Part shown: piece after piece, positions 49,729 through 63,761 of the stretch
How the letters are laid out: each line of letters opens with the position of its first letter
Numbering within the stretch: the first letter of the stretch is position 1
From: Planctomycetota bacterium
GTDB taxonomy: Bacteria; Planctomycetota; Planctomycetia; Planctomycetales; Planctomycetaceae
Length of the DNA stretch: 64,000 nucleotides
Assembly (NCBI GenBank): GCA_003671275.1
Contig: QWPB01000108.1
Span: 1 to 64,000, forward strand
Direction: 5' to 3'
Made by a program: the position numbers and the translations under genes
The notes under the pieces: generated by a model
Databases searched by the model: none
What the model saw: only the letters and a program-made list of their open reading frames with translations
What the model was told of the DNA's origin: nothing

Positions 49729-52700
49729 ATGTTGCATGATGCGACATTGAAATCGTTCCGATCCATCGGCTTTCGGGTATTGACCGTCATGGCCAGCCTC
49801 GGGATGTGCTTTCCCCTGCTGGCATACGGAGAAGATGCGCTGGGAGTGCGTGTGCCGGAGGGGTTCGAAGTCACGCTCTATGCCGATGACGAATTGGCCC
49901 ATGACATATACGCGATGACCATCGACGCTCAAGGGCGGATCGTGGTTTCCGGGGCCGGTTATGTGCGTGTGCTGATTGACTCGGATCATGATGGGAAGGC
50001 CGATACCTTTTCGCAATTTTCCGATGAGCCCAAGTCCGGGGCCCAGGGGATGTACTTTCATGGCCGCGATCTGATCTGCTTGGGCGATCAGGGGTTGCAG
50101 CGGTACACCGATAAAGACGCTGATGGCAAGGCCGATGGTCCGCCCCAGGTGTTTATCAAGCTGAACACGGGCGGCGAACACGATGCCCATGCGATCCGGA
50201 AAGGGCCGGACGGTTGGTGGTATCTGATCTGCGGCAACATGGCGGGTGTCAACGAGAAGTACAACTCGCTGCCACATCCTCCGGTCAAGGTACCGCGCGC
50301 CGGGACGATGTTGCGGTTTTCTCCCGATCTGACCCAGGGCGAGATCATCGCCCATGGACTACGGAACGCCTATGACTTTGACTTCAATGCCTTCGGCGAT
50401 CTGTACACCTTTGATAGTGATGGGGAAAAGGAAATCACGTTGCCGTGGTATGAGCCGACCCGGCTGTACCATCTGGTTCCCGGGGCGGATTGCGGCTGGT
50501 TTTCGAAGAGCTACAAGCGGCCCGAGTATTTCCTCGACATGCCACCGGTGTTGAAGTCGTTTGGTCGCAGTTCACCCACAGGATTGGTGACTTATCGCCA
50601 TACGCAGTTTCCCGCCCAGTATCAGGGGGCACTGTTCGCGCTCGACTGGACGTACGGCCGCGTCTGGGCAATGCCCATGGAAGCCGACGGTTCGACATGG
50701 TCCACCCAGCCCATTGAGTTCATGACCGCTGTAGGCGAGCATGGTTTTGCTCCAACCGATGCCGACGTGGGCCCCGACGGATCGCTGTATGTCTGCGTTG
50801 GAGGCCGCGGAACGCGGGGGGCAGTTTACCGCGTTCGACGAGCGTCCCAGGAGCCCGCACGAATCCAGCCACCAGTCGGAACCCAGGAATCCGTTGATGA
50901 AAAACTCGCCCGTTGTCTGACCGCACCACAGCCATTGAGCAGCTGGTCGCGGGCCCAGTGGGAACCACTGGCCAAGGAACTGAAGGCTCCGGTTTTCGTG
51001 GAAGCAGCATTGGATGCCAGCCGGTCGCCTGCGGAACGGGTGCGGGCCATTGAAATTCTGACCGAGAAATTTGGCGGTCTTGACGCCGACATGCTGGCTC
51101 GAATGACGGAGTCGAATTCGACCGCTGTTAAGGCTCGGGCGGCCTGGTCACTGGGCCGGACCTCGCCCGCCACTCCCAGTACCGAGTACTTGCGAGCCTG
51201 CCTGATGGACAAGCAGCCGCTGGTCGTGCGGATGGCGCTGGAGTCGCTGGAAGCAGCCGATGACGAGATCCTCCAAGAACTGGCCCTGTCGATTGCCGCC
51301 CAATTGGCCAGCAATGACCGGCTGGTTCGGCAAACCGCGATCCGTGTTCTGTCGCGGGCTTCCGTCCCAACCTACCACACCATCTCCGAAGAAGCTGTCA
51401 AACGCGGATGGCAGGCTGGTGTGTCGGTGGCGGTGGCCTTCACGAATCGACGGCAGACGATTCACTCCTACCCGATCGGGATTGCTACTCGCATTCTGCA
51501 GCGGGATCACAGTGAGGCTCTCAAGCTGGAGGCCGCGCGGTTACTGCAGCTGGCGCTCGGGGATCTGCATGCCACCGAGGGAACGATTCCCGAGACGTTC
51601 ATCGGCTACACCAGTCGGACACAGCTGGCCCCCCACGCGGAAAAGCTGTCGGAACTCAATGCCGCGTTTTCCAGTTTCTATCCGAGTGGATTCGAGCTGG
51701 TCGATCTGGAAATTGAGCGAGCCATGGCGATGGCCCAGCCATCGGATCCCGTACTGCTGGAGAAATTGCTCTCGCAGATCGGGGATCAGTCCCACCCTGT
51801 CGCGGACATTCACCGGCTGATCGTGGCCTCGCGGTTAAAGATCACCCCCACCGAAGCCCAGCGCGTTCAGGTGGCCCAGTCGCTGGTTCGCCTGGAGGGG
51901 AAGATCAAGGCCCGCAGTCTGCCTCAGGACAGTGACTGGGATGACCGGATTTCGGAATTGTTTGCATCGCTGGTCGAACAGGACAACGAGCTGACAGCGG
52001 CCATGCTGGCCCAGCCGGAGTTTGGTCAACCGGGACATGTGATCTTTGCCTCGGAGTTCTTTGAGTCACAGTATGCCACCCTGGCGAAGGCGTTTGTCGA
52101 CAAGATTCAGGTTGACCCGAACTATGTCTGGTCGACCGATGTGATATTCCTGCTGGGGGGGAGTCCGGACGAAGCGCTGCGGGATCTGGTGCGAGGGCAG
52201 TTTGACAATTTTGCCCTCCGGAATGCCGTCCTGCTTTCGCTGTCCGAGAACCCCACAGATGTGGACCGGGACAAGTTCATTGCCGGACTGGAGAGTGCTC
52301 CAGTCGATGTGATGGCTGAGTGCGTGAAAGCCCTGCTACTGCTGCCCGGCAGTGATTCCGCTCTGGAAAATGTGGCATTGCTGCGGGCGTTTCGCAAGAT
52401 GTCACCCGTTGATCAGGAACTGCTGGTACGCGATCAGCTCGAAGAGATTCTGCGGCGGAATCTGACGCAGAACTTTGGGTATCAGGCCGGACGTGAAGGA
52501 GATTCGCAGGTCGCCGTGGTCGAACAGTGGACCGCACACATTCAACAGACCTACCCGGAAGAGTTTGCCCGTCAGTCGGGGGACACGCAGCAGGGAATCG
52601 ACGAGCTGCGGACATTCCTGACCCAGGTGAACTGGGAGCAGGGTAACCCGGCACGCGGGGAAGTGCTGTTTGCACAACGGGCGTGTATCCAGTGTCATGG

Positions 52701-53091
52701 AAATCGGGCGGCATTGGGACCGGATCTGCATGGTGTGGCGACCCGTTTTTCACGTGAGGATCTGTTCACTGCGATTGCCCTGCCGAATCGGGATGTGTCG
52801 CCGCGCTATCAGACGACTTTGATCGAGACGCAGGATGGCCGGATCTTCACGGGGATGAATGTTTACGAAGCGATTGACGCCGTCGTCATTCGCAACGCGG
52901 CCAATCAGACCTTTCGCATCGAGATGGACCAGATTGAGACTCGGAAGACCCTGTCGAATTCATTGATGCCCACCGGGCTGCTCAAGGATCTGACCCCGTC
53001 CGATTATGCGGACCTGTACGCATTTTTGCGGTCGATGAGTGCTCCCGCAGTGCAGGCCGCCAGTAACGCCATCGAGGACCAGGTCGAGTAG
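49729..53091 (+). CDS. PVC-type membrane-bound dehydrogenase with haem-c domain
   Basis: 1120 residues. Signal peptide at about 12-34 (FRVLTVMASLGMCFPLLAYGED). Residues about 36-370 are a beta-propeller-like dehydrogenase (VRVPEGFEVTLYADDELAHD, GGEHDAHAIRKGPDGWWYL, HGLRNAYDFDFNAFGDLYT, YVCVGGRGTRGAVYRV). The middle is HEAT-like and helical (RAIEILTEKFGG, AIRVLSRASVPTYHTI). The C-terminus is cytochrome-c-like with RACIQCHGNR, CxxCH at 986-990, and GPDLHGVATRFSREDLFTAI. These proteins are abundant in planctomycetes and are annotated as dehydrogenases; the physiological substrate is not known. Confidence 0.92.
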   Translation: MLHDATLKSFRSIGFRVLTVMASLGMCFPLLAYGEDALGVRVPEGFEVTLYADDELAHDIYAMTIDAQGRIVVSGAGYVRVLIDSDHDGKADTFSQFSDEPKSGAQGMYFHGRDLICLGDQGLQRYTDKDADGKADGPPQVFIKLNTGGEHDAHAIRKGPDGWWYLICGNMAGVNEKYNSLPHPPVKVPRAGTMLRFSPDLTQGEIIAHGLRNAYDFDFNAFGDLYTFDSDGEKEITLPWYEPTRLYHLVPGADCGWFSKSYKRPEYFLDMPPVLKSFGRSSPTGLVTYRHTQFPAQYQGALFALDWTYGRVWAMPMEADGSTWSTQPIEFMTAVGEHGFAPTDADVGPDGSLYVCVGGRGTRGAVYRVRRASQEPARIQPPVGTQESVDEKLARCLTAPQPLSSWSRAQWEPLAKELKAPVFVEAALDASRSPAERVRAIEILTEKFGGLDADMLARMTESNSTAVKARAAWSLGRTSPATPSTEYLRACLMDKQPLVVRMALESLEAADDEILQELALSIAAQLASNDRLVRQTAIRVLSRASVPTYHTISEEAVKRGWQAGVSVAVAFTNRRQTIHSYPIGIATRILQRDHSEALKLEAARLLQLALGDLHATEGTIPETFIGYTSRTQLAPHAEKLSELNAAFSSFYPSGFELVDLEIERAMAMAQPSDPVLLEKLLSQIGDQSHPVADIHRLIVASRLKITPTEAQRVQVAQSLVRLEGKIKARSLPQDSDWDDRISELFASLVEQDNELTAAMLAQPEFGQPGHVIFASEFFESQYATLAKAFVDKIQVDPNYVWSTDVIFLLGGSPDEALRDLVRGQFDNFALRNAVLLSLSENPTDVDRDKFIAGLESAPVDVMAECVKALLLLPGSDSALENVALLRAFRKMSPVDQELLVRDQLEEILRRNLTQNFGYQAGREGDSQVAVVEQWTAHIQQTYPEEFARQSGDTQQGIDELRTFLTQVNWEQGNPARGEVLFAQRACIQCHGNRAALGPDLHGVATRFSREDLFTAIALPNRDVSPRYQTTLIETQDGRIFTGMNVYEAIDAVVIRNAANQTFRIEMDQIETRKTLSNSLMPTGLLKDLTPSDYADLYAFLRSMSAPAVQAASNAIEDQVE

Positions 53092-53619: not shown

Positions 53620-54282
53620 TCAGAATTCGTCGCCGGGCAGGTCAATGCTCCAGCGCCGAACCAGAGGGCAGGCCATCTCCAACTGGTCACAGATTCGTGA
53701 GATGACGAAATCGATCAGATCCATCAGTGTCAGCGGCTGATGGTAAAACCCGGGCATCGCGGGCAAGACGATCCCTCCGGCTTCGGTAATCTTTCGCATG
53801 TTGTCCAACTGGATCAGGCCCAGCGGGGTCTCACGAGGGACCACGATCAGCTTACGGCGTTCCTTAAGGTGTACATCCGCCGCCCGCTGGATCAGGTTGG
53901 TGGACATCCCCTGAGCCACGGAGGCCAGTGTTCCCATCGAACAGGGACAGATTACCATCCCGCTGGTAGGGAACGACCCGCTGGCGATTCCCGCCGAGTA
54001 GTCCTGGTAGCTGTGGACAATCAACGTTCCGGGCGGGACCGTGGGGGGGATGGCTTTTCGTTCCTGCCACCAAGGGAGGGACGCGGATCGTAACTTTTCG
54101 GCGGTGATTCCTCCGGCCAGGGAAAGTTGCAGTTCTACTTCGAAGACACGATGTGCGGCGGGGCTGGCGATCAGATGGACGTGGCCCCCCTGAGCTAACA
54201 GCACTTCGACCAGCCGCACGCCATACGCCGCGCCACTGGCCCCCGTGAATGCCACGACAAACTGTTTGGTTGATCCGCTCAT
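53620..54282 (-). CDS. ubiX: Flavin prenyltransferase
   Basis: Attaches dimethylallyl to FMN to make prenylated FMN, the cofactor of UbiD decarboxylases. The N-terminal TGASGAAYGVRLVEVLL is the FMN-binding signature. TSGMVICPCSMGTLASVAQG and LIVVPRETPLGLIQLDNMRKITEAGGIVLPAMPGFYHQP are UbiX-typical. The ATG at 54282 is preceded by GGGG-containing sequence and gives 220 residues, close to the family's usual size. TATAAT at 54313-54318 on the minus strand, about 30 bases upstream, may be the -10 box. No ubiD gene is in the window. Confidence 0.96.
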   Translation of the reverse strand: MSGSTKQFVVAFTGASGAAYGVRLVEVLLAQGGHVHLIASPAAHRVFEVELQLSLAGGITAEKLRSASLPWWQERKAIPPTVPPGTLIVHSYQDYSAGIASGSFPTSGMVICPCSMGTLASVAQGMSTNLIQRAADVHLKERRKLIVVPRETPLGLIQLDNMRKITEAGGIVLPAMPGFYHQPLTLMDLIDFVISRICDQLEMACPLVRRWSIDLPGDEF

Positions 54283-54312
54283 CCGCATCCCCACATTGTG
54301 GACTGATGCGGG

Positions 54313-54449: not shown

Positions 54450-57302
54450 CTATTTCGCGGCTGTTTCCGGTGCCGGGACGGGGTGCGGGAACTTGCTGAC
54501 TTCCTGGCTGTTCTTGCCGTTCCAGATGCGAATCAGACCATCTTCGCCCGCAGTGATGACATAGGTCTCATCCCCCGAAGCGTAGACTGTGTACAGGTAG
54601 TCCGCCGAGCCCCCGAAGTTGCGGTAGTTGCTGCCATTGCTGGCGGTGTGGAACCGCACGTTCTTGTCGCCGCTCGCACTGACGATGTTATCAGAGACAC
54701 CGATGTAGCTGATGGCGGTGACCTGCTTCGTCGAGTTCGTGATCGTGCGAATCTGTTCGCCGGTCTCGTAGTTCCAGACCTTAATCGCGTTGTCGGCCCC
54801 GGCACTGACGAGGTTGCTGCCATCCGACTTAAAGGCCACGCCCAGCACATGATTGGTGTGCCCTTCGAACGACCGCACGAACTTGCCGGACTCGACTTCG
54901 AAGACCTTCACGAACTTGTCCGCAGCTCCCGATACCAATAGTTTTCCATCCCGCGAGAATTCGACATCGTAGACCGTATCGCTATGGGCATCGGCGATAG
55001 TCTTCTCAATGGCCCGGTTGGCCACATTCCATAGCAAGAGTTCGCCCGACCGCGACGGGTCGCCACCACCACTGACCAACCGCGTCCCATCGGGGCTGAA
55101 GGCCAGGCACAACACGCGGTCCACATGCGGCGAGGCACTCAGATCGAGGGCGTTCTCAGGCTTCGAACCGAGCGTCGCGACGAGTTTCCACTGCGGCTTG
55201 ATGTCCCATACTTGAGCGGTCTGATCGGCCCCGGCGGAGAGCAGGGCCCCACTGCCGAGGAACTTGAGCGATGCCACCGGAGCGGTATGCCCCGTGATCG
55301 TTTGTAGCGGAGTCCCGGTCTGGGCATGCCATAGGCGGATGGCGTGGTCATCGCCGGTCGTCACCAGCACTTGGCCATCAGCGGAGAGAGCCACCGAACG
55401 CTGCGGCTTGGGAGCCATCTGGGCTTGGGCCTTGGCGGCGTTGACGGCCTCTTCGGCCTTGGTGGCTTCGGTCTTGCGAACTTCGAGGCTGGCTTTCAAC
55501 TCCTCCAACCGTTTCTTGGAGTTGTCGAGCGACTGCTGCGAGAGGACGATGGCCCGGTCGGCGGAGACCACGCCGTCCTTGGTCTGCTGCAGGGCATCGT
55601 TCTCTTTCTTAAGGGCGGCCGCCGCGTCTTCGCTGGCCTTCTTCAGACCCGCATCATCGGCCTTCGCAGCCAGGGCATCCGCCGCAGCTTTGGCTTTGGT
55701 CTCCGCTTCGGTGACTTTTTTCTGCTGTTCGACGACGGCCATTTCGGCCTTCGGCTTGGCTTCGTTGGCCTTCTTCAGCGAGTCCTCGCGACCGGTGATG
55801 TCCTTCTCGCCTTCTTTCACCGCGTTGTCGTTGAGGGTCACCTTGTTCTTGGCAACCGTCAGTTCGTCCGTGAGGAAAGCGGCCTGCCGATCGAGGAGCG
55901 GATCACCCTTCACTTCGCACTTCTGTTGATTGTTCCGCTGCCAGACGCGGGCGATGTTGTTCTCCGCGGAACCAGCTATGAACTGCCCATCCGCCGACAC
56001 CGCCACTCCGCTGACCGGTGCTCCGAGATTTTGATTGAACTGCTGACCGCCGTTGTCGAGGTTCCACAACCGCACAGTGCCGTCCGCACTGCCGGAGACG
56101 ATCTCGTTGGAGGCCGTGAGCAACGTCAAATGGTTCACCGGCCCGCCGTGCCCCGCCAGTTCCTTGACCGGCATCGGCGCCGGAGCGGCGGGATCGACCG
56201 CTGCGATCGGCGTGGCCCATAGACGGATCACATTGTCGGCGTGGCCCGCAATCAGTTGGGTGCTGTCCTTATTGAAGCTCAAAGCCGTGACCGGCTTGGG
56301 CATCGGCAGCTTGGCGATCAGCGATCCATCGGCCACGTTCCAGGTCCGCAGCGCGCTGTCGTCGGAGCCAGTCGCGACCATCTTGCCGTCCGGGCTAAAG
56401 GCTGCGGCCTTAACTGGGCCTTCGTGGCCAGTGAGAGTCGCCCCTGCCTGACCGCTTTGCAGGTTGAACAGCCGCACGGTGTTGTTGTTCAGGACCAAAG
56501 CCGTGAGCGTATCGTCGGCGGAAATCGCAGTGGAGACGATCGGGGCCCCCGGTTCGAGTTTGGCCGTGGCAGCGGTTGCCGAGCGTTCCCAGAGCTTGAT
56601 TTCGCGGAAGCTGCCGGTGGCCAGCAGATTGCCATTCGGGCTGAAGGCCATCGAGTGAACGAAGTCGCGGTGCGAGGTGCCCGGCCCGTACAGCGGCTTC
56701 TCATCCTGAACAAGCGCCAGCAGCGACGGGTCGGTCAGGCGGGCGACCTCCTTCTGCTGCGGCAAGTCGTAGATGAAGATGCGGTTGGCTCGACCGGCGG
56801 CGATGAACCGCTGATCCGGCGACACCGCCAAGCTGTAGACCGACGTGATCGTCTCTGGGATCGCCCGCCAGGCAATGTCGCTGCCCGGGGGAGCGGCGGT
56901 GCCGGGAGTGGCCCCTTCCTCGATCCATTTGCGGAGGATGCCGACCTCGCGGGGGGTGAGCGGTTTGGCTTCCGCCTTATTCGGCGTCGGCGGCATCACC
57001 GGGTCTTCGGTCCGGGCGGCCAGCTTGTAGATTAAGCTCTCATCGGGTTTTCCGGCGACGACCGCTGTTCCGCTGGCTCCCCCCTTGAGGATCGCCGCCA
57101 CGTTTTCGAGAACGAGGTCGCTCTCCTTGTTCGTGACGTTGTGACACGCCAGGCACTTCGCTTCGAGGATTGGGAAGACATCGACGAAGAACTCGACAGG
57201 ACGTCCCAAGGCCGGATCGGCGGGTGCGATGGCCGTATCAGCGGCAAACACCGAGGTGGCCGCCGAGGAAGCAAGGATTGCAAGGAGAGAGGTGAATCGC
57301 AT
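54450..57302 (-). CDS. Secreted cytochrome c-WD40 protein interrupted by a coiled coil
   Basis: 950 residues from the ATG at 57302. Order: signal peptide (FTSLLAILASSAATSVFAAD); planctomycete cytochrome-c domain with CLACH at about residues 50-54 and the family-type VMPPTPNKAEAKPLTPREV; a first WD40 block about 150-455 (SVYSLAVSPDQRF, GHEGPVKAAAFSPDGKMVATGSDD); a coiled coil about 470-628, Ala/Lys/Glu-rich (AAALKKENDALQQTKD); then a second WD40 block about 635-925 (GHTAPVASLKFLGSGALLSAGADQ). The insertion between two WD40 blocks is unusual. Haem attachment and propeller function are inferred from family knowledge. It follows the pre-peptidase-type gene on the same strand. Confidence 0.9.
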   Translation of the reverse strand: MRFTSLLAILASSAATSVFAADTAIAPADPALGRPVEFFVDVFPILEAKCLACHNVTNKESDLVLENVAAILKGGASGTAVVAGKPDESLIYKLAARTEDPVMPPTPNKAEAKPLTPREVGILRKWIEEGATPGTAAPPGSDIAWRAIPETITSVYSLAVSPDQRFIAAGRANRIFIYDLPQQKEVARLTDPSLLALVQDEKPLYGPGTSHRDFVHSMAFSPNGNLLATGSFREIKLWERSATAATAKLEPGAPIVSTAISADDTLTALVLNNNTVRLFNLQSGQAGATLTGHEGPVKAAAFSPDGKMVATGSDDSALRTWNVADGSLIAKLPMPKPVTALSFNKDSTQLIAGHADNVIRLWATPIAAVDPAAPAPMPVKELAGHGGPVNHLTLLTASNEIVSGSADGTVRLWNLDNGGQQFNQNLGAPVSGVAVSADGQFIAGSAENNIARVWQRNNQQKCEVKGDPLLDRQAAFLTDELTVAKNKVTLNDNAVKEGEKDITGREDSLKKANEAKPKAEMAVVEQQKKVTEAETKAKAAADALAAKADDAGLKKASEDAAAALKKENDALQQTKDGVVSADRAIVLSQQSLDNSKKRLEELKASLEVRKTEATKAEEAVNAAKAQAQMAPKPQRSVALSADGQVLVTTGDDHAIRLWHAQTGTPLQTITGHTAPVASLKFLGSGALLSAGADQTAQVWDIKPQWKLVATLGSKPENALDLSASPHVDRVLCLAFSPDGTRLVSGGGDPSRSGELLLWNVANRAIEKTIADAHSDTVYDVEFSRDGKLLVSGAADKFVKVFEVESGKFVRSFEGHTNHVLGVAFKSDGSNLVSAGADNAIKVWNYETGEQIRTITNSTKQVTAISYIGVSDNIVSASGDKNVRFHTASNGSNYRNFGGSADYLYTVYASGDETYVITAGEDGLIRIWNGKNSQEVSKFPHPVPAPETAAK

Positions 57303-57340
57303 GGCAGGAACCATTGAGGTGGGTGTGTGGCGAGCCTCTG

Positions 57341-57435
57341 GCATCCCTCCGGGATGCTCAAGATTGTGTGTGGTCTGAAACCGGTGGTGTCGCTTCGCTC
57401 AACCACCGGCTAATTTCTGTGATCCCTCCGGGATC
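57341..57435. repeat. Cluster of three hairpins between two large secreted-protein genes
   Basis: GCATCCC-tcc-GGGATGC at 57341-57357; CCGGTGGT (57381-57388) pairing with ACCACCGG (57402-57409); and GATCCC-tcc-GGGATC at 57421-57435. All three are perfect. The block lies in the space between the pre-peptidase-type gene (stop 57477) and the WD40 gene start. It looks like a dispersed planctomycete repeat, as judged from memory. Confidence 0.7.
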
Positions 57436-57476
57436 GTCTCTGGCTGATTGCTGAACGCTGATCGCTGACAGCTTCG

Positions 57477-60400
57477 TTACGGCGTCACGTTCACCGCGAG
57501 CGGAACTTCGACCAGGGCTTCGCCGCTGAAGTCGGCTTTGGCCCGGATCACCAGATTGACTTGCGCTCCGTCCTTGGCGTCCCCGGCGGCAGTGATCGTC
57601 AGCAGCCCCTCGTTCTGGTCGGCGGGGACGATGACATCGGCAGCGGCCACGCCGACGAGGCCGGGTTGGGCGGGCAACGAGAGGGTGACCACCCCCGCGA
57701 AGCCGTTCTGGCGGGTGATACCGACCTTCACTTCGAGCTTGTCCCCCTTCTTCAGGTTCCCGCTGTTGGGGACGTTGGGGGCCAGCTTCAGTGGGGCCGG
57801 TTTGACCACGAGGATCACGGGCACGGCGGGCGGAGTGAAGTTGATGTTGTTGGGTTTCGAGGCATTCGCCTGATCGGTCGAGGCTTTTTCGGCGGCCTTG
57901 CGTTTGTCTTCGAGAGCCTTGGCGGCGTCCTGCTTTTCCTTCTCGCCTTTCTCGGCGCCGGCTTTGGCCTCTTGAGCGGCCTTGTCATCGGCGGTCGACT
58001 TCGTGACGAGTTCGTCCGCCTTTTTGAGGTTCTCGGTGGCGGTCGTCAGAGCCGTGGCCGCATCGGTGGCAGCCTTGGTGGCATCGGTTTTCGCCTTCTC
58101 CTTGGCCTCGGCGTCAGCCTTGGCCTTGTTGAGGGCCTCTTCCGCGGCGGTGAGGGCTTTCTTCTTCTCTTCGTTGGCGGCATCTCCCTCCGAGGCAGTC
58201 TTCGCGGCATCGAACGCCGCTTGAGCAGCCTTCACCGCTTCGGCAGCGGCGGTGGCCTGCTTCTCCGCTTCGGTTTGAGCGGTGGCGGATTTGTCGCTGG
58301 CGGCCTTATTGTCGTCCATCGCCTTCTTCATGGTCTGCTGATCGGCCTGCGACTTCTTCAGTGTTTCGGTTGCCTGGGTCGCTTTGGTCACCGCTTCGTT
58401 TTTGGCCTGAGTCGCGGGTGGTACGGCGTCGGCAGCGGTTTTGGCTTCGGCGGCGACCTTATCGAATTCGGCCTTGAGGCGGTCGGCCTTAGCCGGGTTA
58501 CGGCGATAAGGAACCGGCGCGGTTGACGTTAACCACATCGAGTGGGTGCCCGGCAGGGCATTGTCCTTCACATACAGCCGCCAAGTCGTCTCGGTCTGGT
58601 CCTTTTCAATGGCGATGTTCGGAGCGTCGATGTTGGCATTCGGTTTGGCTCCGGCGGCGTTAAGGGTCACCTTGTCGTTGAAGCCGTCCCGCTTCTCCAG
58701 CTTGACCGGAACGAGAACTTGCCGGCCCTGATGGACCTCCAGCTTGATCGGCTCGGCGACAATCTGAAACGGAGCGGTCTCCGCCAGGATCGAGATCGCG
58801 AACTCTTTGCGGATACGACCGACGGACGGGACGTTGTTGGCCCCGGTCCAGGCAATCTCGCCCGCCCGCACCGAGTGGGCGACTTCGCGAATACTGGCTG
58901 TGCTGGCCTGTGTGGCGGCAGCGGCGGCGGCCTTGAGGTCGGTGATCTTCTGCTGCACAGCGGCGAGGTCATCCTGGGCCTTTTTCTCGGCGGATTGCGC
59001 GGCTTCGAGAGCTGCCTTGGCCTTGTCACGGGCTTGGATCAGGCTCTGGTCGTCCGGCTTGGCCTTGAGGGCTTCTTCCGACTTGTTGAGGGCCTCTTGA
59101 GCGGGTGGGGTCTTCTTGGCCGCGTCGTCGACTGCCTTTTGCAGGTTCGCGATCGGTTTCTCGGCTTCCGGGATAGCTGCATTGGCAGCCACCACAGCCC
59201 GGGCGAGTCGAGGGTCTTCAATCTTGGCTTTGCCTTCGATGCGGAACTTGTTCCAGCCCTCAGCGGCGTCGGCCTTCGACCGGAAGGTCAACATTCCTAG
59301 CGGCATGCCATCGGGGATCGTGGTTCCGCTGCATTCGACTCCCGCTGGGAGATCAAGGGCCAGCACATCGATCGGCCCCGTGAACCCATCACGGCGGAAG
59401 GCGATGACGTGCATCGCGAAGGTGTCGCCCTTCCGCATGGCCATCGACCAGGCTGCTCCGGCGGTCGGCGAAGCAGGGAGGGCCACGAGTCGGAAGTCCG
59501 GTTGATCGGCTCGGATACTGAGCCGGTAGACGTTCGCCGCCGATCCTCGCGATTCGCCGAACCGATCGCGAATTGTAATGCGGTATTTGCCGTCGGCGGG
59601 GACTTCCAACCGCTGGACCGGGTCATCGCTGCGAACATCGTATTGATTGGCCAGCGGATTGGTCGGTTCATCGTCGGGAGCGGCGACCCGCTGAATCGTC
59701 TCTTTGCCTTGTGCATCCACGTTGATGCGGTCGATCGTTACGTAGGGATCGACCGTCTGGCCGAGTCGCTGGCCATACGCTTCGATGTAGAGAACCTCCT
59801 TGGCGTGGGCATCGATAAAGTAAGTATCCACATCGCGCGGATCGGAGAATTGTCCCACCACTTCGCTTGGCACAGGGATGTTTTTGCCTGGAACCGGGGC
59901 ATTGTTCGGCTCGGTCTCCATTATGACGGGAGCCTGAGCGATCCCGATCGAGACTGCATTACTCGGCCCGGCGGGGCTCGGCAAGCGATAGCTGAAGGCA
60001 TCTGTCGCCGCCATCAAAGATGTCGTTCGATCTTCGAGCTGCAACGTACTGGCATCTCCGGGGACCGCGATATCGATGTCAAGCTTGTCCAACTGCGTCT
60101 TGTAGCCAGGGACAGCCACGCGTTGACCTCCGGGCAGGTTATAACCGAATAAAGAGAACTTCGCGGTCTGCCCCGCCGTGCCGGAAGGGGGATAGACGAA
60201 CTCCACATACGGAGCGGTGTGGACATCCAGACGGTAGAAGTGCTCGTTGCCTCCTCGGAAGGCCCCATCGTGCAGCTTGAGCAAATAGTCCCCGTTGGCT
60301 GGAACATCGAATACCAGTACGGGGTCCGAAGCTCCATTGCCCCGCAGCGCAGACAACCGCCGTCGAGATGAGACATCGTGAATTTCGATGATGGGGTGTA

Positions 60401-60920
60401 GCTTCGAATCGATCCGATCGGAGGAAATCTCAATGACCAGTCGCTGACCGGCTGTGGCTGCGAACTTGAAGAGGTCGACATCGGCCCCGCCGTCCATCTT
60501 GCCCTGGATCGCGGTACCGACGGTCAGTGGCATCGCCTTGTCGAGCGTGTTGTTGGGTTCGACCTCGTTGGTCTGGGGCCGCGAGCCGACATAAAAGCGG
60601 CGGGCGTTGCTGACACCCCAGAGTCCTTTGCAACGGACCTCCTGCGGGCCGACTGGGGCATCCGCCGCAGCTGTCACCAGAAAGACTCGGTCGACCGGCT
60701 GTTGTTGATCGTTGAGTTTCGGAGTGGCCGTCAGGCCGAGGTGATTGAAGAGCAGGGCGTTGATCTCTTCAAGATCGTCCCCGCCGGTGATGGAGACTTC
60801 GACCGTCTGCCCCGCCTGCACCCCCGCAGGATGGAGCGAGTAGAGACGCGGCTGAGGAAGTTGAGCCTGGGCGATTGCGGGGAGCAGAATCGCCGCCAGA
60901 CAGAAGATGCGGTAGGACAT
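57477..60920 (-). CDS. Secreted pre-peptidase-type protein with two long coiled coils
   Basis: 1147 residues with signal peptide (YRIFCLAAILLPAIAQAQ). The N-terminal half has immunoglobulin-like and pre-peptidase C-terminal (PPC)-like modules (LPQPRLYSLHPAGVQAGQTV, NEVEPNNTLDKAMPL, ETEPNNAPVPGKN, LVIEISSDRIDSKLHP). Coiled coils span about 575-675 and about 808-1020, both rich in Ala, Lys, Glu and Asp (AAFDAAKTASEGDAANEEKK is typical). Between and after them are beta-rich modules (VTLNAAGAKPNANIDAPN, VGITRQNGFAGVVTLSLPA). It is predicted to be exported; the function is unknown. It sits between the DUF1549/1553 gene and the cytochrome-WD40 gene. Confidence 0.85.
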   Translation of the reverse strand: MSYRIFCLAAILLPAIAQAQLPQPRLYSLHPAGVQAGQTVEVSITGGDDLEEINALLFNHLGLTATPKLNDQQQPVDRVFLVTAAADAPVGPQEVRCKGLWGVSNARRFYVGSRPQTNEVEPNNTLDKAMPLTVGTAIQGKMDGGADVDLFKFAATAGQRLVIEISSDRIDSKLHPIIEIHDVSSRRRLSALRGNGASDPVLVFDVPANGDYLLKLHDGAFRGGNEHFYRLDVHTAPYVEFVYPPSGTAGQTAKFSLFGYNLPGGQRVAVPGYKTQLDKLDIDIAVPGDASTLQLEDRTTSLMAATDAFSYRLPSPAGPSNAVSIGIAQAPVIMETEPNNAPVPGKNIPVPSEVVGQFSDPRDVDTYFIDAHAKEVLYIEAYGQRLGQTVDPYVTIDRINVDAQGKETIQRVAAPDDEPTNPLANQYDVRSDDPVQRLEVPADGKYRITIRDRFGESRGSAANVYRLSIRADQPDFRLVALPASPTAGAAWSMAMRKGDTFAMHVIAFRRDGFTGPIDVLALDLPAGVECSGTTIPDGMPLGMLTFRSKADAAEGWNKFRIEGKAKIEDPRLARAVVAANAAIPEAEKPIANLQKAVDDAAKKTPPAQEALNKSEEALKAKPDDQSLIQARDKAKAALEAAQSAEKKAQDDLAAVQQKITDLKAAAAAATQASTASIREVAHSVRAGEIAWTGANNVPSVGRIRKEFAISILAETAPFQIVAEPIKLEVHQGRQVLVPVKLEKRDGFNDKVTLNAAGAKPNANIDAPNIAIEKDQTETTWRLYVKDNALPGTHSMWLTSTAPVPYRRNPAKADRLKAEFDKVAAEAKTAADAVPPATQAKNEAVTKATQATETLKKSQADQQTMKKAMDDNKAASDKSATAQTEAEKQATAAAEAVKAAQAAFDAAKTASEGDAANEEKKKALTAAEEALNKAKADAEAKEKAKTDATKAATDAATALTTATENLKKADELVTKSTADDKAAQEAKAGAEKGEKEKQDAAKALEDKRKAAEKASTDQANASKPNNINFTPPAVPVILVVKPAPLKLAPNVPNSGNLKKGDKLEVKVGITRQNGFAGVVTLSLPAQPGLVGVAAADVIVPADQNEGLLTITAAGDAKDGAQVNLVIRAKADFSGEALVEVPLAVNVTP

Positions 60921-61286
60921 GATGAGGTGGGGTGGGGGGAGGCGGGCGGGATCGTAGGACGGGCTTTCCAGCCCGTCCCATGCGGACGCAATTCTCGATT
61001 CTTCAACTCACCAGGATGCGGGAGGGACACATCGCTTCTTGAGCTGAAACAGGGAGTTCATGAACCATCGAAATCCCATCTCGCGTCCTTCCACACCGGA
61101 GGGATCCCGAGGAAGGGGTACGGAACCTCGAACTCGCACTTTGCAGGGTTCCTCCCGATGTACTGAATGACACAGAAGTGAGGAGGCGGGAGTCTCATCG
61201 ATCAGCCTCCCCTCCCGCGCGTGACATGTTTGTCAACTTTCGCACGAATTGACTCCGGACGGGAAGGGCTGGAAAGCCCGCCCTAC
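60921..61286. repeat. Intergenic space bounded by inverted copies of a hairpin repeat
   Basis: A 25-base unit containing GGGCTTTCCAGCCC at 60954-60978 recurs, inverted, at 61262-61286 with 23 of 25 matches. The right copy abuts the stop codon of the DUF1549/1553 gene. Each unit forms its own hairpin, the left copy with a 9-bp perfect stem (GGACGGGCT / AGCCCGTCC). No ORF of interest lies between them. Confidence 0.7.
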
Positions 61287-63761
61287 TCAGTGGTTGAACA
61301 GGAACTCCTTCGTGTTCACCAGCGCCCAGACGATGTCTTCAAAGGCGATCTGCGGTTTGTCCTTGTGCTTCTCGATGTGGGCCAGGGCGATGCTCAGTTC
61401 GTCCGATTCCGGATCGCGTGAGTAGACCCAGCGGTACAGTTCGCGGATTTTCTCCTCGTTCGGGCGGTCCTTGTCATTCGCCAGTTTCGCCGCGCGGCCC
61501 GAGCCGCTGCTGACTTTATTCTGGACCTCGGCACTGTTGAGCAGGTGCAGACTCTGGGCCAGATTCGCCTCCTGTGACCGTTCACATTCGCAGGCACTAT
61601 CCCCCTGGGGCTGGCCGAACACCTTCAGGAAGTACGGGGCCACGGTGGCGTCCGGCAACTGGACAGCCAGCGTGCCTTCCGGCATGCCGTTGAACCGTTC
61701 GGTTGTGTTGGTCACCTGGTGGAAGCCGTCGTAGAGGACTTCCGCCGTGAGCCGCTTCGGGTAGTACCGGGCGAAGTTCTTTTTGTCCCGCTGGTTGTGC
61801 TCGTTGGGCAGGGCGCTCAGCTGATACGTTGACGACTGGCAGATGGTTCGCACCAGTGACTTCAGATCGTACCCCGATGTGGCGAAGTGCTTCGCAAGTC
61901 CATTGAGCAGCTCCGGATTTGAGGGAGGATTGGTTTCCCGCATGTCGTCTTCCGGCTCGACGATCCCGCGATCGAAGAAGTGCTTCCAGTAGCGATTGAC
62001 CAGCGCTTTGGCGAAGAACGGATTCTCCTGGGCAGTCATCCATGTGACCAGGTGATGCCGCGGGTCGACCTCAGCGGGGATCTCCAGCGGGGCGGACCCC
62101 AGACCGGTCGGCTTCAGGTTCTGGCCATTGCGGGGGTTGTTCGCGGTCGCGACCCCTTCGTTGTGGAAGATGCGTTTCTCACGCGATTGGCTGTTCATCC
62201 CGGCCATCCGTTCCTTACGGCCCACCCGGCTGAAGAAGGCCGACAGTCCGTAATAGTCGTTCTGGCTCCACTTCTCGAACGGGTGATGGTGGCAGCGGGC
62301 ACACTGGATTCGCAGCCCCATGAACAGTTGGGCCACGTCCTCGACTTCTTCATTGACCTGGGTCACTTCACGATACCAGATCACTGGTGGGTTAAAGCTG
62401 GAATCACCGGACGCGGTCAGCAGTTCGCCGACCATCTTGTCGTACGGCTTGTTCTCGTACAGGTTGTCCCACAGCCACTGGCGGAAGGCGTACGTGCCGT
62501 CTTCGTCGCCTGCTTGCTTCCGCTTGTTGCGGAGGACCATGTTCCATTTGTTAGCAAAGTAATCCGCGTAACCGGGGCTATCGAGCAGTCGGTCAATCAG
62601 CTTGTCACGTTTGGCCGAGTCGGTGTCCTCGCGGAACTGACGAACTTCTTCTTCCGTTGGCATGCGACCCGCGATATCGATCGACACGCGGCGGAGGAAG
62701 GTACTGTCGTCACAGAGTTCGGACGGTGGCAGCCCGAGCAGCTTGAGCTTGTTGAAGACCGCTTCGTCGATGAAGTTCTTGACCGGCGGCAGCTGGGTGA
62801 CTTCGACGCCGAGAGGGACTGTCGCGCGAAACGTTGAAACCTGTCCCTGATAACGAGCCATGATGGCCACTTCGCCCGTCAGATCGAGCGTGTGGACCAG
62901 TCCCGACTTTGCGCTCTCTGCCAGTTCCGGATCGTTCGGCTCGTACAGGGCCATTCGGGTCACGTCTTCTACGGTCCCGTCGGAGTAGGTCGCGAAGCAG
63001 GCAATCTGCTGGTCCTGCTTCGGCTCCATCAGACGGGTTGTTGGAAGACAGCTGATCCCGGCCACGGTGGGCGCCTCTTTGTTGCCCCAGGGCATTCCCT
63101 GACCGACCCAGCGAGCCAGCAACCGGTACTCGTCGCTGTCAACGTCCATCCGTTTGCCGCCCCCGTGAGGCGACTGGCCGACGGGCTTCGTCAGCAACAA
63201 GGAACGTTCCGGCGACGAGACGTTGGTGCGACGACCGCGGGCCTCGTTCTTGAGAAACTCGAAGTCATCTTCCGGATAGAAGCCCAGCAGCGAGAGCTTA
63301 AAGCCGTTCTGGCCCGTGGCCTTGCCGTGGCAGCCCCCGCTGTTGCAGCCGAGCTTGGTAAAGATCGGTACAATCTGGTTCGGGAAGCTGATTTCCGGGG
63401 GGGTGGCAAAATCTTTGACATCCACCTCCACCTGGGTGGACTTACCTTCTGCGGTGGTTGCCGTGATCCGCACGGTGCCATCACCGATCGGCTTGATCAT
63501 TCCCGTGGCGTCGATTGCCACAATTCCTTCCGGGGCTGTGGAGTATTTCACGTCCCGTGTTTTGTCGGTTAGCCGTCCCGCCGCATGGGCCGCAGTGACC
63601 AGCAGTTGCAAGCGGGCATCGGGACCGCGCAGCGTAAACCGTCCCTCCAAAACCTCGAACCGCAGCGACTCTACCGGGCCGAGATCGACAGCTCGAACGC
63701 TGGCGGGGAACAGCCCAGCCATCAAGGCCCAAGCTACCAAGGTGTGTAGTCTTGCTCGCAT
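61287..63761 (-). CDS. DUF1549/DUF1553 protein with Ig-like and cytochrome motifs
   Basis: 824 residues. Signal peptide about 1-24 (LVAWALMAGLFPASVRA), with AAGGGAG before the ATG. A bacterial Ig-like (BIG2) module (KYSTAPEGIVAIDATGMIKPIGDG) is followed by CNSGGCH at 139-145, a CX4CH haem-like motif, then DUF1549 at about 330-535, containing CARCHHHPF (CxxCH at 487-491), and DUF1553 at about 565-815 (NPFFAKALVNRYWKHFFDRGIVEPEDDMRETNPPSNP). Such proteins are planctomycete hallmarks, usually next to a DUF1501 gene, which is absent here. Function unknown; a periplasmic haem protein is inferred. Confidence 0.93.
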   Translation of the reverse strand: MRARLHTLVAWALMAGLFPASVRAVDLGPVESLRFEVLEGRFTLRGPDARLQLLVTAAHAAGRLTDKTRDVKYSTAPEGIVAIDATGMIKPIGDGTVRITATTAEGKSTQVEVDVKDFATPPEISFPNQIVPIFTKLGCNSGGCHGKATGQNGFKLSLLGFYPEDDFEFLKNEARGRRTNVSSPERSLLLTKPVGQSPHGGGKRMDVDSDEYRLLARWVGQGMPWGNKEAPTVAGISCLPTTRLMEPKQDQQIACFATYSDGTVEDVTRMALYEPNDPELAESAKSGLVHTLDLTGEVAIMARYQGQVSTFRATVPLGVEVTQLPPVKNFIDEAVFNKLKLLGLPPSELCDDSTFLRRVSIDIAGRMPTEEEVRQFREDTDSAKRDKLIDRLLDSPGYADYFANKWNMVLRNKRKQAGDEDGTYAFRQWLWDNLYENKPYDKMVGELLTASGDSSFNPPVIWYREVTQVNEEVEDVAQLFMGLRIQCARCHHHPFEKWSQNDYYGLSAFFSRVGRKERMAGMNSQSREKRIFHNEGVATANNPRNGQNLKPTGLGSAPLEIPAEVDPRHHLVTWMTAQENPFFAKALVNRYWKHFFDRGIVEPEDDMRETNPPSNPELLNGLAKHFATSGYDLKSLVRTICQSSTYQLSALPNEHNQRDKKNFARYYPKRLTAEVLYDGFHQVTNTTERFNGMPEGTLAVQLPDATVAPYFLKVFGQPQGDSACECERSQEANLAQSLHLLNSAEVQNKVSSGSGRAAKLANDKDRPNEEKIRELYRWVYSRDPESDELSIALAHIEKHKDKPQIAFEDIVWALVNTKEFLFNH

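Follow-up and report, generated by a model that had tools for sequence, protein, structure and literature searches.

Do three neighbouring genes of a planctomycete genome, whose products combine haem-type motifs, long coils and WD40 repeats, act together outside the cytoplasmic membrane? The window analysed here is a stretch of 64,000 nucleotides, the first 64 kb of an 88.6-kb contig (C82) in a genome of 5.03 Mb with an estimated completeness of 99%. An earlier note on this DNA described three consecutive minus-strand genes for giant exported proteins with a possible joint function. The three genes do stand in a row on the minus strand, with gaps of 366 nt between genes 1 and 2 and 132 nt between genes 2 and 3. 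Signal peptides were judged by eye, in agreement with the note, and all three products are apparently exported; at their actual lengths, "giant" is an overstatement. The genes and a putative promoter are as follows.

61287..63761, minus strand: gene 1, exported (by eye) DUF1549 (PSCyt2)/DUF1553 (PSD1) protein with Big_2/Ig-like domains, 824 aa
57477..60920, minus strand: gene 2, exported (by eye) PPC/Ig-like protein without a haem motif, 1147 aa
54450..57344, minus strand: gene 3, exported (by eye) PSCyt1 (mono-haem motif) and WD40 protein, 964 aa
63873..63900, minus strand: sigma-70-like site, 112 nt upstream of gene 1, the sole one in the region

The promoter scan, whose consensus may not be that of planctomycetes, found no sigma-70-like site in either gap between the genes, and the terminator-like matches on the minus strand all lie inside genes. 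This pattern fits a single transcript weakly, since chance alone would give 1.7 such sites and the promoters of planctomycetes may be of another type. Gene 3 is followed directly, on the same strand, by a gene for a UbiX-family flavin prenyltransferase (53620-54291), and a separate large cytochrome-like gene on the plus strand (49729-53091) encodes a PVC-type haem-binding CxxCH protein (TIGR02604 and TIGR02603) with HEAT repeats. Just upstream of gene 1 are two overlapping minus-strand genes (L039:4220-5859, about 64220-65859 of the contig) that by eye resemble an AbiE-type nucleotidyltransferase toxin and its partner.

Domains and haem-type motifs

Gene 1 belongs to the PSCyt2/PSD1 family, with scores of 172.8 bits for PF07583 (cut-off 29.8) and 160.1 bits for PF07587 (cut-off 28.5). 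The two haem-type motifs claimed for it are present, and a third motif is conserved in addition.

63327..63347, minus strand: CX4CH haem-type motif CNSGGCH, residues 139-145 of gene 1, in an AlphaFold low-confidence loop
62289..62303, minus strand: CXXCH haem-type motif CARCH, residues 487-491 of gene 1, inside DUF1549 and followed by HHP
61578..61592, minus strand: CECER motif, residues 724-728 of gene 1, in a third conserved low-confidence loop
57141..57155, minus strand: CXXCH motif CLACH, residues 64-68, in the PSCyt1 domain of gene 3

The CXXCH motif of gene 1 reads CARCHHHP; C487, C490 and H491 are invariant in an alignment of 43 sequences, and orthologues retain CA[RK]CHHHP. The cysteines and histidine of the CX4CH motif are likewise invariant in orthologues, where it takes the form CN[SGAT]GGCHG. 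CxCER was found in 97 of 97 PSCyt2 (DUF1549) genes that lie upstream of a PPC/Ig gene and in 0 of the 3 other PSCyt2 proteins examined. In the AlphaFold2 model of gene 1 (pLDDT 84), the sole internal low-confidence segments (139-159, 492-495 and 723-729) sit on or beside the CX4CH, CHHHP and CECER motifs, as would be expected if cofactors or a metal are missing from the model. A Foldseek search with this model gave matches below E 0.001 that were mainly Ig/Big_2-like, and the helical DUF1549/1553 core had no convincing match. In one relative (G022) a stop codon divides the gene 1 orthologue into two adjacent frames (L071:5580-8120), either through an assembly error or because the gene is a pseudogene.

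Gene 3, which probably starts at Met15, matches PSCyt1 (PF07635, 54.2 bits, cut-off 22) at 56985-57155, a domain that contains CLACH; its CXXCH is retained and nearly invariant in orthologues. Ten stretches match the WD40 repeat in Pfam (290.7 bits) and would form propellers. Genes 1 and 3 are thus candidate c-type cytochromes. Like the planctomycete PSCyt1-WD40 proteins, gene 3 has a PSCyt1 haem domain at its N terminus and WD40 repeats after it; unlike them, its WD40 blocks are split by a coil of 162 residues, whose counterpart is missing from class-level relatives (G037, G038, G051 and G053), where the WD40 regions are also shorter.

Gene 2 matches the PPC family (PF04151, 33.9 bits, cut-off 25.9), and Foldseek matched its PPC domain to PPC/collagen-binding domains in the PDB (3jqw, TM 0.82 by target length). 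It shares the PPC fold with bacterial PPC proteins and the collagen-binding domains of collagenases, but it has no protease, and its PPC/Ig chain carries two inserted hairpins and matches no NCBIfam model. None of the three window proteins was named by NCBIfam above its cut-offs.

Gene order, joint loss and the DUF1501 neighbours

The search for gene 2 covered 59 relatives and 134 genomes of the order, and the flanks of the hits were then examined. The order gene 1 > gene 2 > gene 3, adjoining and on the same strand, was found at 84 of 135 PPC/Ig loci in the window's class; a further 16 have gene 2 > gene 3 with gene 1 out of reach, several of them at contig ends. Named genomes were scanned separately with a gene 1 alignment, and loci were counted if at least 8.5 kb lay downstream; both partners were present, in this order, at 27 of 28 loci in Planctomycetota and at 12 of 14 in Verrucomicrobiota. 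In Acidobacteriota, genes 1 and 2 alone were visible before the contig end. The trio is conserved across two bacterial phyla, and perhaps in a third. The linkage among planctomycetes that the earlier note had proposed to look for is there. The same genome also holds a second, paralogous trio (L049, contig C13, 5280-16525), in which the gene 2 coil has 186 residues and gene 3 is a far larger WD40 protein (a frame of 1685 codons) with a coil of 271 residues. At another locus of this genome (L050, contig C16, 2205-8279) the order is DUF1549/1553 > PPC/Ig-like with one coil > DUF1501, and DUF1501 stands where the cytochrome-WD40 gene would be.

DUF1501 proteins are alkaline-phosphatase/sulfatase-like. 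No DUF1501 gene was found on the 88.6-kb contig, so that the PSCyt2/PSD1 and DUF1501 pair is absent there; the whole genome has 79 DUF1501 matches and 49 DUF1549 matches. One or two DUF1501 genes precede gene 1 at 4 of 29 loci in Planctomycetota, compared with two or three just before gene 1 at 13 of 15 in Verrucomicrobiota, and loss of DUF1501 from the cluster is therefore probable in the window's lineage. The earlier note was right that DUF1501 is missing locally, but the emphasis it placed on this is partly misplaced, as DUF1501 precedes the same trio in Verrucomicrobiota. The known PSCyt2/PSD1 and DUF1501 systems of Planctomycetes and Verrucomicrobia (the Studholme domains; PMC5615132, PMC2754498) resemble gene 1, in which both Pfam domains score above cut-off, and resemble the Verrucomicrobiota loci in having DUF1501 genes ahead of the trio. 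In contrast to them, the window's trio lacks DUF1501 on its contig, the extra CX4CH and CECER motifs occur in gene 1, and a PPC/Ig hairpin protein and a cytochrome-WD40 protein serve as partners. Planctomycete WD40 genes, too, often have DUF1501 genes beside them (PMC5587647).

These neighbours bear on the strongest alternative, polysaccharide handling, in which the PPC/Ig protein would bind a (sulfated) glycan, relatives of DUF1501 would hydrolyse it and the cytochromes would accept electrons from an oxidative step. Besides the DUF1501 genes of Verrucomicrobiota, the match of the PPC domain to collagen-binding domains and published reports of PSCyt genes close to sulfatases and in combination with carbohydrate-binding modules (PMC5615132) speak for it. 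However, the conserved unit was not seen to include a glycoside hydrolase, a sulfatase or a transporter, and a Pfam search matched no carbohydrate-binding family in the three window proteins. We regard it as possible, with the balance tilted against it; it is compatible with, and not opposed to, the explanation that the trio is one functional module.

A second alternative is that three independent exported proteins are kept adjacent by slow rearrangement, with hairpins that are mere self-paired spacers. About 30 genomes of the window's family share flanking genes, and part of the linkage within the family is therefore plain synteny; the self-pairing of the hairpins in the AlphaFold2 model and the uncorrelated coil lengths, both described below, also suit this reading. 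However, family synteny does not explain the trio in Verrucomicrobiota, where the order is the same and the flanks are different, and the paralogous second trio, the joint loss of the three genes and their joint retention after scattering all argue against it. It is thus rather unlikely.

Joint loss was observed in eight genomes of five genera (G009, G060, G014, G036, G034, G111, G112 and G015), which have no orthologues of any of the three genes. In these, the best gene 2 match has an E value of 1e-16 to 1e-23, gene 1 identity is at most 45% (at least 59% elsewhere), and gene 3 has no match or one at about 1e-31 to 1e-37; 24 to 93 other gene 1 matches are retained. They fall in five places on the rpoB tree, indicating up to five losses, an upper figure because two of the placements are weakly supported. 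This count depends on one gene tree (rpoB) with weak deep branches and a partial rpoB for G014, and single-gene gaps in fragmented assemblies (e.g., G115, G129, G157 and G154) were left out of it.

Joint retention was seen where the trio is broken up. The independent scattering that was looked for is the exception: it affects eight genomes, all of which keep the three genes, with gene 1 separated from gene 2 in every one and retained at 64-73% identity. In the complete genome G110, genes 1, 2 and 3 lie at 7.77, 0.19 and 1.99 Mb with 73, 51 and 61% identity, respectively, and the coils are kept; in the other seven genomes gene 1 is relocated yet retained. Since the trio stands together across phyla and is lost together, the three proteins very probably share a single task beyond the cytoplasmic membrane. 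The three genes are a conserved unit that is lost and retained as one, and a joint function, as the earlier note had supposed, is likely and well supported by conserved order, co-loss and co-retention.

Predicted helical hairpins and shared tip segments

The coils anticipated in genes 2 and 3, of about 100, 210 and 155 residues, were located at slightly greater lengths.

58896..59213, minus strand: helical hairpin 1 of gene 2, residues 570-620 / 625-675 (coil 570-675, 106 residues), in an Ig-domain loop, by AlphaFold2
57861..58496, minus strand: helical hairpin 2 of gene 2, residues 809-912 / 917-1020 (coil 809-1020, 212 residues), in an Ig-domain loop, by AlphaFold2
55419..55904, minus strand: coil of gene 3, residues 481-642 (162 residues), between two WD40 blocks, by sequence

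In the AlphaFold2 model of gene 2 (pLDDT 90.5) the hairpin arms have 51+51 and 104+104 residues; because the arms are equal and their ends meet at the Ig domain, each coil appears to partner itself. An arm of 104 residues is about 15 nm long. Alignment with coil-less relatives showed that both coils are insertions in loops of repeated Ig-like domains. In all four helices the hydrophobic residues recur with a heptad-like period of 3.47-3.49 (shuffle p 0.000-0.022). The strongest helix-breaker lies at the coil centre of hairpin 2 in 0.54 of loci, compared with 0.28 in shuffled sequences; hairpin 1 gave no clear excess (0.28 of loci, 0.20 shuffled). The gene 3 coil, placed between the two WD40 blocks by alignment with coil-less relatives, is likely to be a hairpin as well, with a tip near residue 561 and arms of about 80 and 76 residues. 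The heptad periodicity of its arms is borderline (shuffle p 0.054-0.058), and the strongest helix-breaker is at its centre in 0.51 of loci compared with 0.18 in shuffled sequences. HlyD/MacA-type periplasmic adaptors have long self-paired alpha-hairpins that project from a beta-rich body. Gene 2 resembles them in this respect by analogy only, whereas it shows no sequence relation to them, has no transporter partner and contains different beta domains.

The earlier note had proposed that the coils of the neighbours pair with each other to build a scaffold. Total coil lengths of genes 2 and 3 are not correlated (Spearman -0.06, contrasts r -0.04, n=89). Among 100 loci of the class, both genes have a coil in 94, neither in 5 and one of them in 1; this co-occurrence is not independent evidence because coil presence changes just once or twice on the tree. 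The coil detector also turned up disagreements in presence among a wider set of loci. G039 has a coil in gene 2 and none in gene 3, and the Verrucomicrobiota locus L260, by the same detector, has one in gene 3 and none in gene 2. In the complete genome Pan216 (L238), a culturable planctomycete with the trio, gene 3 has no coil. In genus g56 (L120, L122, L124, L125, L127, L128 and L130) the usual proportion is reversed, with a single gene 2 coil of about 100 residues and a gene 3 coil of about 330. Pairing between the neighbours is improbable as stated: the 94+5 concordant loci and the sequence shared by the outer hairpin halves of the two genes in some lineages favour it, but self-paired hairpins are predicted with high confidence, lengths are uncorrelated, coil presence has a single independent change, G039 and L260 carry a coil in one gene only, and gene conversion between adjacent repetitive DNA would equally account for the sharing.

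Local alignments between the gene 3 coil and the gene 2 coils of the same locus beat heptad-preserving shuffles in 98% of cases, by a larger margin than alignments with random other loci. Own-genome coil similarity compared with that to the nearest relative showed no overall excess, with the own pair better in 50 of 89 (p 0.07), and exchange is therefore episodic rather than continuous. The outer hairpin halves share DNA between genes 2 and 3 in about five lineages, and tip segments are shared at 18 of 94 loci. The strong cases (G008; G032/G091; G160/G161/G011; G089; G096/G158/G159) share 175-500 nt at 68-78% DNA identity and have long gene 3 coils (273-376 residues, compared with about 180 typically); eight weaker cases share 52-150 nt. 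On average the midpoint of the shared piece falls at 0.49 (sd 0.06) of the gene 3 coil, and the piece thus covers the outer half of the hairpin. In G008, the gene 2 coil matches genome-wide at E<=1e-8 itself, the other gene 2 coil and the gene 3 coil alone. In the scattered G110, coil similarity is average (rank 43 of 94). Either common selection on the tips or recombination between neighbouring repetitive genes may have produced the sharing.

A putative extracytoplasmic haem assembly

We favour the explanation that the trio is one functional module, which probably makes an extracytoplasmic haem-protein/scaffold assembly; that the three proteins form a physical complex is plausible, with the chances about even, and such a complex may have a redox/scaffold role. 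Gene 2 would be the haem-free scaffold, predicted to be a PPC/Ig-like domain chain with two projecting, self-paired helical hairpins, and the gene 3 coil would form a similar hairpin between the two WD40 blocks. Judged from the motifs, genes 1 and 3 would contribute two and one c-type haems, respectively. The hairpins may work as spacers or as arms for docking, and their outer halves may have a common purpose in the two proteins. As for the reaction, it would most likely be a periplasmic or cell-surface redox step, originally carried out with DUF1501 partners. A bolder and less likely reading is a new class of extracytoplasmic haem assembly, common to Planctomycetota and Verrucomicrobiota: the hairpins of the PPC/Ig chain would match that of the cytochrome-WD40 protein, outer halves would be exchanged between the genes because the tips cooperate, and three haems would be positioned over tens of nanometres.

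PSCyt2 genes adjoin families of unknown function, and a 2017 paper states that the functions of planctomycete-specific cytochromes are unknown (PMC5615132). For one PSCyt2/PSD1 gene of R. baltica, control by an ECF sigma factor and a redox-related role have been proposed (PMC2754498). In the open-access literature we found no description of the trio or its hairpins, in keeping with the claim of an undescribed assembly. The trio is a real and widespread module of known families that has apparently gone undescribed so far. The role of the many planctomycete-specific cytochromes is an old open question, and one DUF1549 subclass is now tied to two fixed partners that are inherited with it as a unit, which gives concrete proteins to co-purify. 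If the sharing of outer hairpin halves between the neighbouring genes is functional, such a match in sequence between scaffold proteins would be unusual.
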